From Magnetospira sp. QH-2 (GTDB lineage Bacteria; Pseudomonadota; Alphaproteobacteria; Rhodospirillales; Magnetospiraceae), in contig NZ_FO538765.1 in assembly GCF_000968135.1 (NCBI RefSeq), forward strand, positions 1,317,819 through 1,381,818: a DNA stretch of 64,000 bases, read 5' to 3'. A program made the translations under genes and the position numbers. Every line of letters begins with the position of its first letter. The stretch's first letter is position 1. Below are positions 23,797 to 27,991 of the stretch, in pieces. The notes under the pieces were generated by a model that was given only the letters and a program-made list of their open reading frames with translations, was not told the origin of the DNA and searched no databases.

Positions 23797-24597
23797 CTAA
23801 CCGCCCTTTTTGTTTTTACCGAGCATGTTGGCCAGTTCTTCCTGCGACATGGCAGAAGGATCGATGACGGGCTCCGGCTCGGCGGCTGGTTTGGGGGCCG
23901 GTTTAGGAGGCGGCGGCGGCGGCGGTGCCGGTTTGGGCTTTGGCGCCGGGGCGGCTTGCGGTTTGACCTTGGGGGGCGTGGGCTTTTGTTCAGCTTGGCG
24001 GGCCGTTTGGGCCTGGGCCATGGAGCCCAACCGCGAGGCCAGTGCAGCTTCGGCGGCTTCCTTTTCCTTATCCTCTTGGCGCCGCTTTGGTCCCATGTAA
24101 TCCTGATCAGCCTTGCGGCGGCGGTCGGGACCGTTATAGGACGCCGACGCCACGAACTCGCGGGGCCGGTCGACGATCTCCATGATCCGGCCGAACAGCT
24201 GCTTGGTGCTGAAGGGTTTGACGATGTACTCGTTGACTCCCGCGTCGCGGGCTTCCAAGACCCGGCGGCGTTCCGCCGAAGAGGTCACCATGATGATCGG
24301 CGTGTAGCGGTGGGGACTGCGCTCGTCATTCCTCAGTGCCTTGACCAGATCAAGTCCGGACATGGCTGCGAGGTCAAATTCAGTGATGATGACGTCGGGT
24401 TTGACCTTTTGCAGCTGGCCCAGGGCATTCTGACCGTCGGTGGCCTCCCAAAAGGTCGTGACGCCCATGGTGCGCAGGGCGTCCTTGAGCAGAACCCGGA
24501 CATAGCGGCTGGGCTCGACGACCATGAATGACATCCGGGCAATATTCGCCCGTGCCTTTGTGTTGACGTGATTCGAAGGCTGCTTCCAAGCCTTCAT
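23797..24597 (-). CDS. Receiver-like protein with Asp-to-Glu change and proline-rich tail
   Basis: 266 residues. A receiver domain (about 23-145) is followed by GPDRRR and GPKRRQ motifs, a charged helix, a Pro/Lys/Ala-rich stretch (200-240) and a C-terminal MSQEELANMLGKNKKGG. In the receiver the phosphoacceptor position reads VIITEFDLAAMSG, aligning Glu where CheY has Asp57; the Thr/Ser (IIMVTSS) and Lys (IVKPFS) remain. It may therefore be phosphorylation-independent or locked in an active-like form. The start overlaps the stop of the upstream receiver gene (ATGA), so the two are coupled. The C-terminal motif resembles those in its neighbour. Confidence 0.85.
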   Translation of the reverse strand: MKAWKQPSNHVNTKARANIARMSFMVVEPSRYVRVLLKDALRTMGVTTFWEATDGQNALGQLQKVKPDVIITEFDLAAMSGLDLVKALRNDERSPHRYTPIIMVTSSAERRRVLEARDAGVNEYIVKPFSTKQLFGRIMEIVDRPREFVASASYNGPDRRRKADQDYMGPKRRQEDKEKEAAEAALASRLGSMAQAQTARQAEQKPTPPKVKPQAAPAPKPKPAPPPPPPPKPAPKPAAEPEPVIDPSAMSQEELANMLGKNKKGG

Positions 24598-26090
24598 GGC
24601 GCGGTGCTCCGTTTTGTCAGCGTTGCCAGGAGATCCTGCTGCGAGATGGTGGGTCGCTTGCCGGGGTCCCGATGCTCCGCCTCGGTCTGTTGATTCTGGC
24701 CCTTACTATCTCCATTGAGGAGGGCGTTGAGAAGATCTTTTTGCGATATCGGGGCCTCATGGGCAATGTTTTCTCCCCCGGCGCCGGGTTCTTGGGAAAA
24801 ATCGCCGTTCTGCGGCCCTGGTGAGCCCGATGGAGCGCCTCCTCCCACCGATCCGGACGGGCCGGGTGCCGAATGGGGAGGGGCTGCGGGATTCGCCGGT
24901 TGGTCGTCGTGCCATTGTTCCGAATCCGTGGGCTCAAAAGAACCCGAATCGTCCAACGGCTCTTCATCGTCAGCGGTTGGCTCTCCCCCCCTTGTTGGTC
25001 CTTTGGTCGATGGCCCCGCGGAAGGTGGCGCGAATCCGTCAGCAAACTGGACGTTTTGGACAGGCGGACCGCTATCATAGACCACGGTGGATTGGGCGGC
25101 GGCCATGGGATCGGTCGGCGGCGCGACTTCGGGCGGTGGTGCCAGGTCAGGGCGTTCCAATCCCGCCCAGGGCGAGGCAGAGGGTTTCGGTGGTGGCGGG
25201 GGGGCAACGGTTGGCATGGGCGGCGGTGGCGCGGGCTGTTCGTTGCCGAGCAAGGATTTGGCTTCGTCTTCCAAAGCCTGTGTCGCGGCGGCCACGTCCG
25301 CCGGGCTGATCTCCGGCTCTTCGGGTGTCGGCCCCGGTTCTTCCGCGACCGGTTGTGGTGGCGGAGGCGCCTTCGCCGCCATGTCGGTCCACTCCATGGC
25401 TTCGGCGGGCTTGTTGGCTGAAGGCGGTAGGGAAGGGGGCGGGCGTCTCAGGCGGGGTGGGCGAGGAAGCGGCGTGTCCTCGATGGTTTCCGCAGGGGTG
25501 TCTTCCTGGGGCGGCGGCGATGGCTTGTTCACCGGCTTGACTGCCGCCTTTTTTTCGGCGCGAAGCAAGGCCGCCTTCCAAGGGGCCTCAAGCAAGGGCT
25601 TTTGATCCCGTCGAAAGTCTTCTCCTTGATGATCGACCGGGGAAGGGCGCCGGCGATCAGGACCAAAGAAGGTCTTGGTTTCCACATAGGGCCGCAGTTC
25701 ACGAATAATCTGATTGATGCGGCCCATGGCCTTGGCGCCGGATACGGGCTTGATCAGAAAGCCGTGAATACCGGCGTCGCGGGCCTGGTGTACAAGGTCA
25801 ATATCCACGTCCCGGCTGATGCCAATGATAATGGCGAAGCGGTTGGGAGAATTCCAGTTGCTGCGGACTTTCTTGGCGAATTCCACCGTATTCAGCTTTG
25901 GGGTGTCCATGTCGTAGATGACGAACACAATCTGATCGACCCGAGTCGCTTCCAACTCGCGCAGGGCGGCACGGTCATCGGAGACAAAGGTGATCTTGTT
26001 GGCACCCGCGGCTTGCAGGATATGCTTGAAGGCCTGTCGGTCGTTGGCATTGCTGTCGGCAATGATGAATATGGATTCTTTGAAACTCAC
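24594..26090 (-). CDS. Receiver protein with long proline-rich tail and FliM-like motifs
   Basis: 498 residues. The receiver domain (about 5-135) has IADSNANDRQ, the probable phosphoacceptor Asp in VIYDMDTPKLN and Lys in LIKPVSG, then FFGPDRRR. Residues 200-440 are disordered, with many Pro, Ala and acidic residues. The C terminus carries ISQKDLLNALLNGDS (448-462) and ISQQDLLATL (482-491). The first closely resembles the N-terminal CheY-binding peptide of FliM. The start is a GTG at 26090 with a weak ribosome site. It is the first gene of a minus-strand run that continues through the second receiver, p78, GH57 and the bacteriophytochrome. Confidence 0.85.
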   Translation of the reverse strand: MSFKESIFIIADSNANDRQAFKHILQAAGANKITFVSDDRAALRELEATRVDQIVFVIYDMDTPKLNTVEFAKKVRSNWNSPNRFAIIIGISRDVDIDLVHQARDAGIHGFLIKPVSGAKAMGRINQIIRELRPYVETKTFFGPDRRRPSPVDHQGEDFRRDQKPLLEAPWKAALLRAEKKAAVKPVNKPSPPPQEDTPAETIEDTPLPRPPRLRRPPPSLPPSANKPAEAMEWTDMAAKAPPPPQPVAEEPGPTPEEPEISPADVAAATQALEDEAKSLLGNEQPAPPPPMPTVAPPPPPKPSASPWAGLERPDLAPPPEVAPPTDPMAAAQSTVVYDSGPPVQNVQFADGFAPPSAGPSTKGPTRGGEPTADDEEPLDDSGSFEPTDSEQWHDDQPANPAAPPHSAPGPSGSVGGGAPSGSPGPQNGDFSQEPGAGGENIAHEAPISQKDLLNALLNGDSKGQNQQTEAEHRDPGKRPTISQQDLLATLTKRSTAP

Positions 26091-26396: not shown

Positions 26397-26825
26397 TCAC
26401 TGCGTCGGGGAATTTTCCGGCGGGCGAGTCCGGATCCGGTCCTGGATCAGGCCGAAAAAGGTAGCGGGCGCGCCGTCCCCCGCATAGTGCCAGCCCAAAT
26501 GCCAGCCACAATCACTGCACAAAGCCATGCGCCAGACATATCCGGAAAACCAGGAGAATTGGCAGCTTGGCGGGCCCATGGGCAGGCAGCCTTCCGCCTG
26601 TTCGAAGCAGCCGATGCGAAATACCACGCCGGCTGGATTGAAGACCACATGATCATGATCGCCGCGCAAAGAGATCCGCCAGGCCTCCCGGGTAACCGGA
26701 TGATCGCAGTGCGCGCAAAAGAGGCGGTCGTCTGATAGGCCTTCGGTGCCAAGTCCATGGGTCGCATCGTCACCGGGCGATGGAGCGTCGGCGGGACGGT
26801 CGACGTCGAGCAGGATTGGGTTCAA
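26397..26825 (-). CDS. CULT-domain (cereblon thalidomide-binding domain-like) protein
   Basis: 142 residues. From about residue 35 the chain is a single CULT domain: zinc ligands FCAHCDHPV and ALCSDCGWHLGWHY, the core GDHDHVVFNPAGVVFRIGCF, and three Trp of the aromatic cage in FSWFSGYVW and LGWHY, ending FFGLIQDRIR. It is closely similar in layout to the single-domain Magnetospirillum gryphiswaldense protein MsCI4, which binds thalidomide-type imides and uridine. The natural bacterial role is unknown. The start is a TTG at 26825, supported by AGGAGGT seven bases upstream. Residues 1-33 are acidic and probably disordered. Confidence 0.9.
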   Translation of the reverse strand: MNPILLDVDRPADAPSPGDDATHGLGTEGLSDDRLFCAHCDHPVTREAWRISLRGDHDHVVFNPAGVVFRIGCFEQAEGCLPMGPPSCQFSWFSGYVWRMALCSDCGWHLGWHYAGDGAPATFFGLIQDRIRTRPPENSPTQ

Positions 26826-26897
26826 GTGTTGGACCTCCTGCTATCAGTCTAACCCGGAAAGACTTTAGATCACGTCGTGTTTGATTCCAATGGGGTC

Positions 26898-26932
26898 GCG
26901 TGTGTCCAACGGGTCCGATTGGACACACGCGA
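26898..26932. repeat. Perfect 13-bp inverted repeat upstream of the CULT gene
   Basis: Arms CGCGTGTGTCCAA (26898-26910) and TTGGACACACGCG (26920-26932) around the nine-base spacer CGGGTCCGA. It lies 73 bases upstream of the CULT start and just beyond the terminator at 26945. There is no T-tract on either side, so it is a candidate operator or leader hairpin rather than a terminator. Confidence 0.75.
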
Positions 26933-26944
26933 GGCAAAAAGAAA

Positions 26945-26989
26945 CCCGGCTGCTTCGCCGGGCGGAGTTGCTCTTGAGGGATGAACAAC
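26945..26989 (-). ncRNA. Two-hairpin 3' element of the 73-aa gene, candidate small RNA with terminator
   Basis: On the minus strand, hairpin one is GUUGUUC - AUCCCUCAA - GAGCAAC (26989-26967, one G-U pair), with an anti-Shine-Dalgarno-like CCCUC in the loop. Hairpin two is CCCGGC - GAAGCA - GCCGGG (26962-26945) followed by UUUCUUUU, an intrinsic terminator. The element lies 49 bases past the stop of the 73-residue gene. The two-hairpin form with a CUCC-like loop recalls alphaproteobacterial 3'-UTR-derived sRNAs. The terminator is well supported; independent sRNA status is inference. Confidence 0.5.
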
Positions 26990-27038
26990 ATAGCACGAGG
27001 TGCCTTGCTCATCCGTGATGGCGATCACAGTGCGGACT

Positions 27039-27260
27039 TTAAATCTTGTTCTTCCGAACAGCCTGTTTAAACGTCTCGCGGTCTTTTTCCAGCTCGAACA
27101 TCATCATGAGCTTGTACTGACGGGCCCCGGTTGCATGAGTGACCAACCCATTGAACTGATAGGAATGGCTCCCTCGGCAATAGGCATGCAGCCAGGAGTC
27201 CAAATCGTCCATCTTACCGTTGTAGGTAAAATCCACCTGAAAACGCTGGTTTGTAGCCAT
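27039..27260 (-). CDS. Unrecognised 73-aa protein with a structured leader
   Basis: 73 residues with no family I recognise: MATNQRFQVDFTYNGKMDDL, then WLHAYCRGSHSYQFNGLV and a charged C-terminal helix (MFELEKDRETFKQAVRKNKI). It is soluble, aromatic-rich and probably alpha/beta. The ATG at 27260 has AGAGGAG nine bases upstream. Both the start codon and part of that ribosome site lie inside a predicted three-way RNA junction (27256-27330). A terminator follows at 26945. The quality of the flanking signals argues that this is a real, regulated gene. Confidence 0.75.
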   Translation of the reverse strand: MATNQRFQVDFTYNGKMDDLDSWLHAYCRGSHSYQFNGLVTHATGARQYKLMMMFELEKDRETFKQAVRKNKI

Positions 27261-27330
27261 AGTGCGCAACTCCTCTCTTGGAGAGATCGGGGACTTCCGA
27301 AGACCGGAAGTCCCACCAACGCACTATGGC
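27256..27330 (-). promoter_or_regulatory. Three-way-junction RNA leader enclosing RBS and start codon
   Basis: Minus-strand order: P1 5' arm GCCAUAGUGCG (27330-27320); P2 GGGACUUCCG - GUCUU - CGGAAGUCCC (27314-27290, 10 bp); P3 CUCUC - CAA - GAGAG (27285-27273, 5 bp); P1 3' arm CGCACUAUGGC (27266-27256, 11 bp perfect). The AUG at 27260-27258 lies inside P1, and the 3' arm of P3 is the beginning of the ribosome site GAGAGGAG. Closed, the fold should block translation of the 73-residue gene. All pairings are read directly; switching behaviour is inferred. Confidence 0.7.
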
Positions 27331-27344
27331 ATATGGGGAGTTAC

Positions 27345-27503
27345 CTATTTCTTTACCACCAGCCACAGGGCATGGATCACGCCGGGCAGGAAGCCCAAGA
27401 GGGTCAGCAAGATATTGAGCCAGAAGTGCAGGCCGATGCCGACGGTCAGAAACGCGGCCAGCGGCGGCAGGAACAGGGCGAGAATAATGCGGATGATATC
27501 CAT
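27345..27503 (-). CDS. Pmp3/YqaE-family small membrane protein (52 aa)
   Basis: 52 residues with two membrane spans: MDIIRIILALFLPPLAAFLT and, after VGIGLHFWLN, a second span ending ALWLVVKK. This is the UPF0057/Pmp3 signature (IILALFLPPLAVFL...G...FWLNILLTLLGFLPGIIHALW). Family members are stress-induced membrane-potential modulators in yeast and plants; YqaE in bacteria is poorly characterised. The gene is too short for ordinary ORF lists. Its stop lies 14 bases before the RNA leader of the 73-residue gene on the same strand, so both may share a transcript. Confidence 0.9.
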   Translation of the reverse strand: MDIIRIILALFLPPLAAFLTVGIGLHFWLNILLTLLGFLPGVIHALWLVVKK

Positions 27504-27670
27504 GGGATGCTCTTTCGAAAAATGGAATGTTGAACCTTGCCTAGTCTTCTCTTATTTCAAGATCAAGGGCCAAGCGGAAAAAAGACCGCGTGAGTCCGTT
27601 GCCCATGGGGCGTCTACAGAGTAAGTTGGCCGCTCTTTTTCTTCGATTCTACCCTATTCAGGAGGTTTTT

Positions 27671-27991
27671 ATGGCCGATCAAGTGCGCGCCTCGCATATT
27701 CTTCTCATGTACGCCGGTTCGGCGCGTTCCACCGCCAGCCGGAGCAAGGAAGAGGCGTTGACGGAAATCGAGGCCCTGAAGACCAAGCTGGCCGAAGGCA
27801 CCGATTTTGCCGAGTTGGCGCGTAATCATTCCGACTGCCCGTCCGGTCAGCAAGGCGGGGACCTGGGCGAGTTCGGTCGCGGATCCATGGTCAAGCCCTT
27901 CGAGGAAGCCGCCTTCGGCCTTGAAGTGGATGCCGTCAGCGATGTGGTGGAAACCGATTTCGGTTATCACCTGATCCAGCGCACCTCTTAA
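27671..27991 (+). CDS. Parvulin-type peptidyl-prolyl isomerase
   Basis: 106 residues, a single parvulin domain like E. coli PpiC: VRASHILLMYAG near the N terminus, EGTDFAELARNHSDCPSGQQGGDLGEFGRGSMVKPFEEAAF and the final VVETDFGYHLIQRTS. It catalyses cis-trans isomerisation of prolyl bonds in the cytoplasm (no signal peptide or anchor). A strong GGAGG at 27661-27665 fixes the ATG at 27671. DUF1491 follows at 13 bases and is probably co-transcribed. Confidence 0.93.
   Translation: MADQVRASHILLMYAGSARSTASRSKEEALTEIEALKTKLAEGTDFAELARNHSDCPSGQQGGDLGEFGRGSMVKPFEEAAFGLEVDAVSDVVETDFGYHLIQRTS

Follow-up and report, generated by a model that had tools for sequence, protein, structure and literature searches.

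A predicted three-way-junction leader around the start codon of a small-protein gene in Magnetospira sp. QH-2

The locus and the predicted fold of its leader

The gene considered here lies on the minus strand of the window, by which we mean the whole 64-kb stretch of DNA that was analysed, and encodes a protein of 73 amino acids (Table 1). Upstream is a gene for a 52-residue membrane protein of the Pmp3 family, whose stop codon is separated by a gap of 14 nt from the first paired arm of the leader. Because this gene is co-directional and ends so close to that arm, the leader may be intercistronic, with the two genes carried on one message. No sigma-70-like promoter, the one promoter type searched for, was found in 26800–27800, and no tRNA or tmRNA was found in the 64-kb window. 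The next element after the 73-residue protein gene is a terminator-like hairpin, in agreement with an earlier note on this DNA, which had named this gene as the only one behind the leader. Beyond the hairpin, at 26896–26932, there is a perfect 14-bp inverted repeat (TCGCGTGTGTCCAA), and further downstream, at 23797–26090 on the minus strand, two receiver-like proteins carry a GPDRRR motif; by eye, DRR-rich N-terminal extensions are present in several members of the 73-residue protein's family elsewhere.

Table 1. Features of the leader and its surroundings, in window coordinates.
Feature	Position	Strand	Basis
Pmp3-family membrane protein gene lying upstream in the same direction, 52 aa	27345..27503	-	PF01679, E 2.5e-20
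P1, 5' arm	27319..27330	-	folding and inverted-repeat scan
P2, predicted 10-bp hairpin, 5-nt loop	27290..27314	-	folding; 27314-27305 pairs with 27299-27290
P3, predicted 5-bp hairpin, 3-nt loop	27273..27285	-	folding; 27285-27281 pairs with 27277-27273
Shine-Dalgarno sequence GAGAGGAG; first five bases are the P3 3' arm, last three unpaired in the junction	27270..27277	-	
P1, 3' arm, spanning the AUG (27260-27258) and reaching two bases into codon 2	27256..27267	-	folding and inverted-repeat scan
Gene for the 73-aa protein, stop included	27039..27260	-	ORF; family profile; predicted structure
Terminator-like hairpin with T-run, behind the 73-aa gene	26944..26963	-	consensus match only

Folding predicts that the minus-strand RNA from 27330 to 27256 forms a three-way junction of the stems P1, P2 and P3, with five bases, GAGUU at 27272–27268, left open in the junction. 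P1 is built on perfect 11-bp arms, GCCATAGTGCG and CGCACTATGGC, at 27330–27320 and 27266–27256, and is extended to 12 bp by a U-G pair (27319/27267) beside the 11 Watson-Crick pairs. The predicted minimum free energy of the leader is -44.9 kcal/mol, with z scores of -6.2 over 96 nt and -7.0 over 90 nt, none of 200 shuffles being as stable in either case. The same core fold is recovered with 75, 90, 110 or 140 nt of upstream sequence included, and is lost with 60 nt, when the 5' arm of P1 is missing. These results uphold the architecture described in the earlier note, that is, a perfect 11-bp closing stem holding the AUG and enclosing 10-bp and 5-bp hairpins, the 3' arm of the shorter one opening the Shine-Dalgarno sequence.

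The start codon is well placed, as the match to the family profile begins near it, and the Shine-Dalgarno sequence sits 9 nt upstream of it. In the predicted ensemble the AUG is paired with a probability of about 1.0 (the energy model gives 0.999 for 37 C and still 0.993 for 65 C), and no alternative fold with a free AUG appears. The earlier note had both the start codon and the ribosome site locked. The first part of this claim holds, with the AUG buried in P1, but the Shine-Dalgarno sequence is masked only in part, since it starts in P3 and ends in the open junction, and its mean pairing in the predicted ensemble is about 0.57–0.59.

Two other identities for the leader were considered and rejected. 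P2 is not followed by a T-run, as would be expected of an intrinsic terminator of the Pmp3 gene, and the leader is not a mobile or repeated element because it is present in single copy in the genome, the next best match being 23 bases at 91% (E 0.02).

Rarity of the fold and the search for related leaders

The genome of the strain consists of contigs of 4,021,307 and 31,063 bases. Genome sizes of about 4.02 to 4.97 Mb are given for four magnetotactic strains including Magnetospira sp. QH-2, which has a plasmid (PMC6532209, excerpt). As a background we used 401 genes, defined by our own simple gene caller rather than by an annotation, from the 64-kb window and 20 stretches of 20 kb; together these cover 464 kb of the 4.05-Mb genome, with one of the 20 stretches taken from the 31-kb second contig. 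The z scores were calculated with 40 shuffles for each background gene and with 60 or 200 for each leader of the 73-residue protein family.

A pair of 11-bp arms is not rare by itself, but a nested fold placed on a start codon is. Perfect arms of at least 11 bp, at most 120 nt apart, occur at eight separate places in the 64-kb window, and the arms alone are thus no more than is expected by chance. By z score, however, the leader ranks second among the 401 genes, only two of the other 400 having z below -5, and no other gene among them has an 11-bp Watson-Crick stem that overlaps its start codon; when G-U pairs are counted too, the stem has 12 bp, a length reached or exceeded in four of the 401. 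A z score below -4 combined with AUG pairing above 0.9 is found in two of the sampled genes, this one and L100:230, the start call of the latter being doubtful. At 23.9 kcal/mol (mean 11.5), the predicted cost of opening the ribosome site is high, but neither unique nor extreme (eighth of the 401, within the top 2%). The upstream region with the lowest z score in the sample (-7.6), at L108:17515, has an uninterrupted predicted hairpin of 20 pairs beginning 68 nt ahead of the start codon.

At the gathering score, Rfam 15 gives no match anywhere in the window, and the best weak match in 27200–27400 reaches 14.2 bits against a cut-off of 86.7, so that the earlier note was right to place the leader in no known class. 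A covariance model of the leader, made from its one sequence given twice with the structure supplied, finds only the leader itself in 317 genomes of the order under strict filters that lose weak matches. The same model has no match at L038 (the locus of the second family member found in the window's genome), at L118 or L119 (both from Magnetospira MAGs), or at eight other loci of the family.

The 73-residue protein, its family and their leaders

Neither Pfam nor NCBIfam contains a model that matches the 73-residue protein, which is in this respect unrecognised, as the earlier note put it; however, it is not isolated, because it belongs to a family matched in 106 of the 317 genomes searched from the order. 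An initial search for relatives gave matches in 6 of 60 genomes, one of them that of the window, and a profile of six sequences then gave the 106 matching genomes, a count that takes in the window's genome, which has two members, as well as a handful of partial, weak matches (E near 1e-3) within long open frames. A profile of 14 sequences, run against 299 genomes of the phylum, had matches in three: the window's genome, a second genome from the order, and a third from elsewhere in the class. A profile built from 89 other family members picks out the window protein (E 2.3e-16) from the 1174 frames of the window; it excludes both members of the window's genome, although its members were gathered with a profile that included the window protein. 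Family members are roughly 60–115 aa long, depending on the starts chosen, share the core WL..xC.G.W....FE...D...F, in some cases have an arginine-rich N-terminal extension, and are present in both same-family genomes examined, the Magnetospira MAGs of L118 and L119.

When 14 members were compared with the family libraries, there were only scattered weak matches of single members (best E 0.002), and for the same number of members no PHROG match was found at E 0.01; no PDB sequence matches the family at E 1. A scan of the genome collection, which finds close relatives only, confirmed no close relative of the 73-residue protein. An origin as a phage or plasmid gene was also considered and rejected: there was no tblastn match to the 73-residue protein, and for three family proteins relatives on viral contigs were unconfirmed. 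By eye, across 30 loci (L008–L037), no neighbouring gene is common to the family, and close relatives within it do have neighbours in common.

An AlphaFold2 model (three sequences; pLDDT 80, pTM 0.57) has the order beta-alpha-beta-beta-alpha and predicts a ferredoxin-like fold, which gives the fold class and not the function. Foldseek returns nothing at E 0.001 or better for this model, and its weak matches include many chains of the eukaryotic ribosome or pre-ribosome. In VIA-align the model reaches Z scores of up to 8.4 with many ferredoxin-like domains of mixed function, Z of 6–8 being said to be common for such matches. V-ATPase chains lead the 50 matches listed, which also contain ACT, PII-like and RRM domains and 30S ribosomal chains, the last of which we take to be bS6.

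The other family member found in the window's genome, at L038:730-942 (G000:C1:1851629 on), likewise has a leader predicted to trap its AUG, with a pairing probability of 0.999 and z -5.36 (200 shuffles; -5.55 with 60). Its fold is one long broken hairpin with the AUG inside the outer helix, unlike that of the 73-residue protein gene. A 53-aa hydrophobic reading frame lies just upstream of this member (L038:489-650), much as the Pmp3 gene precedes the 73-residue protein gene.

To set these two leaders among those of the family, we used 91 leaders for which a start codon could be assigned by our own rule among 92 profile matches at loci L008–L097; they are not all the matches of the search that gave 106 of 317 genomes. 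A further 15 rows from L120–L139 (14 distinct starts, L137 appearing twice) were folded outside these counts, and seven matches had no start by the rule. The two most stable of the 91 are those of L038 (z -5.55) and the 73-residue protein gene (z -5.41), both with 60 shuffles, followed by L055 (z -5.12), with AUG pairing of only 0.50. A z score below -3 with AUG pairing above 0.9 is found in five of the 91 (the 73-residue protein gene, L038, L050, L067 and L096), as against three of the 401 background genes, the 73-residue protein gene again included. The distant members L050, L096 and L067 have stable AUG-pairing leaders with z of -4.6, -3.5 and -3.1, respectively. Start occlusion across the whole family was considered and rejected as not significant, most of the 91 leaders not being unusually folded: AUG pairing above 0.9 is seen in 10 of them, compared with 11.3 expected from shuffles, and long-range closing does not differ between family leaders and a background of 279 genes (p 0.26 and 0.33). 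For each of the four leaders from the Magnetospira family, that of the 73-residue protein gene among them, long-range closing is only about a one-in-ten event (0.10–0.13) when compared with shuffles of the leader's own upstream sequence.

In the orthologues of L038 from the two Magnetospira MAGs, the region from -14 to +3 folds back onto -80 to -40, to a level reached by 8 and 7 of the 401 genes of the background, which comes from the window's genome and not from the MAGs' own. Their leaders form hairpins of similar length and have a conserved sequence block upstream, and their stability does not exceed that of shuffles (z -1.18 and -0.07). Among the three orthologous leaders of this paralogue, RNAalifold gives -12 kcal/mol for two sequences (alignment A7), with double changes in 2 of 18 pairs, and -3.64 kcal/mol for three (A8), where the covariation term is unfavourable at +3.33 and 5 of 18 pairs have a double change. 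As this consensus is weak, we claim no covariation in the three leaders.

Possible roles of the leader

The fold, its rarity in the genome sample and the second AUG-trapping leader at L038 are results of computation, whereas repression, regulation and the agent opening the leader are what we infer. A start-locking leader is a plausible interpretation, and the leader is probably a brake or switch on the making of the 73-residue protein. More specifically, with a probability of about one half, it is a cis-acting translational leader that is off by default, its AUG occluded, and is opened by a trans-acting factor or, inefficiently, by ribosomes.

The alternative of no specific regulation, according to which the leader is a hairpin paired by chance, or a boundary, stabiliser or processing site following the Pmp3 gene, is less likely. 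In its favour, the covariance model found the leader in none of the relatives searched among the 317 genomes, 11-bp arms are not rare in the window, and in the 401-gene sample several leaders of the highest stability look like hairpins at the upstream gene's end. Against this, P2 without its T-run is unlike an intrinsic terminator, the closing stem sits on the start codon, and AUG trapping recurs on L038. A translational riboswitch responding to a small molecule we consider very improbable. Translational riboswitches with junction aptamers do have nested stems and occlude the start site, as the leader here does, and a three-way junction by a start site is among the known riboswitch architectures. 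Aptamers are normally conserved, however, and the leader has no Rfam class, no relatives or conserved core found in the 317 genomes and no predicted alternative fold that frees the AUG. The earlier note had also offered an RNA thermometer, which was not borne out. The leader resembles ROSE-type elements in that the start region, start codon included, is paired with the 5' leader (PMC8346122, excerpt). Thermometers depend on weak pairs that melt, according to the same excerpt (PMC8346122), whereas this leader is predicted to be far too stable to melt, 65 C leaving its AUG 99.3% paired in the energy model; its Shine-Dalgarno sequence is only partly paired, and the gene is not a heat-shock gene. 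The thermometer reading is thus unlikely, and we would give it only the slightest of chances.

Autoregulation, in which the ferredoxin-like 73-residue protein would bind and stabilise its own leader in the manner of a uS15 operator, is attractive because both family members found in this genome share AUG trapping and because the uS15 operators of B. stearothermophilus and T. thermophilus provide a precedent as three-way junctions (PMC10931766, excerpt). These rpsO leaders are alike in placing a three-way-junction operator before a small protein gene, and the operator is thought to block ribosome binding (PMC10931766, excerpt); they differ in that the protein is another one and that here the AUG itself lies in a long closing stem. 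The predicted fold class includes RNA binders, as the 30S ribosomal chains and the RRM domain among the 50 matches listed indicate, and the weak Foldseek matches to ribosomal and pre-ribosomal chains point the same way. On the other hand, the same class holds the ACT, PII-like and top-ranking V-ATPase domains, at Z values that are common; the leaders of the 73-residue protein gene and L038 are so unlike that the covariance model of one misses the other; the leaders of most members elsewhere have no unusual stability; and the RNA is predicted to close even when no ligand is bound. Taken together, we regard autoregulation as doubtful. A broader version, in which the proteins of the family, at least in this genome, would bind their own messages and control them through unrelated start-trapping leaders that evolved separately, is more doubtful still.

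If the leader is instead a default-off element of the kind we favour, it would be transcribed, possibly on an mRNA shared with the Pmp3-type gene upstream, and the RNA would fold into the three-way junction, with the AUG double-stranded and part of the Shine-Dalgarno sequence left in the junction. A 30S subunit could then dock at the partly free Shine-Dalgarno sequence and yet rarely start. With the AUG buried and initiation rare, expression would be low, or would be raised once P1 was opened or outcompeted, either by a trans-acting protein or RNA or by ribosomes loading before P1 closes. By the usual footprint numbers, a ribosome terminating on the Pmp3 gene would not quite reach P1.

The leader would make a compact case in which control of translation by burying the start codon can be tested. 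As the genome has two members with unrelated but similarly occluding leaders, autoregulation can be tested directly with two reporters. The more lasting by-product may be the family itself, a group of small proteins widespread in one order, with no model found in Pfam, NCBIfam or PHROGs.
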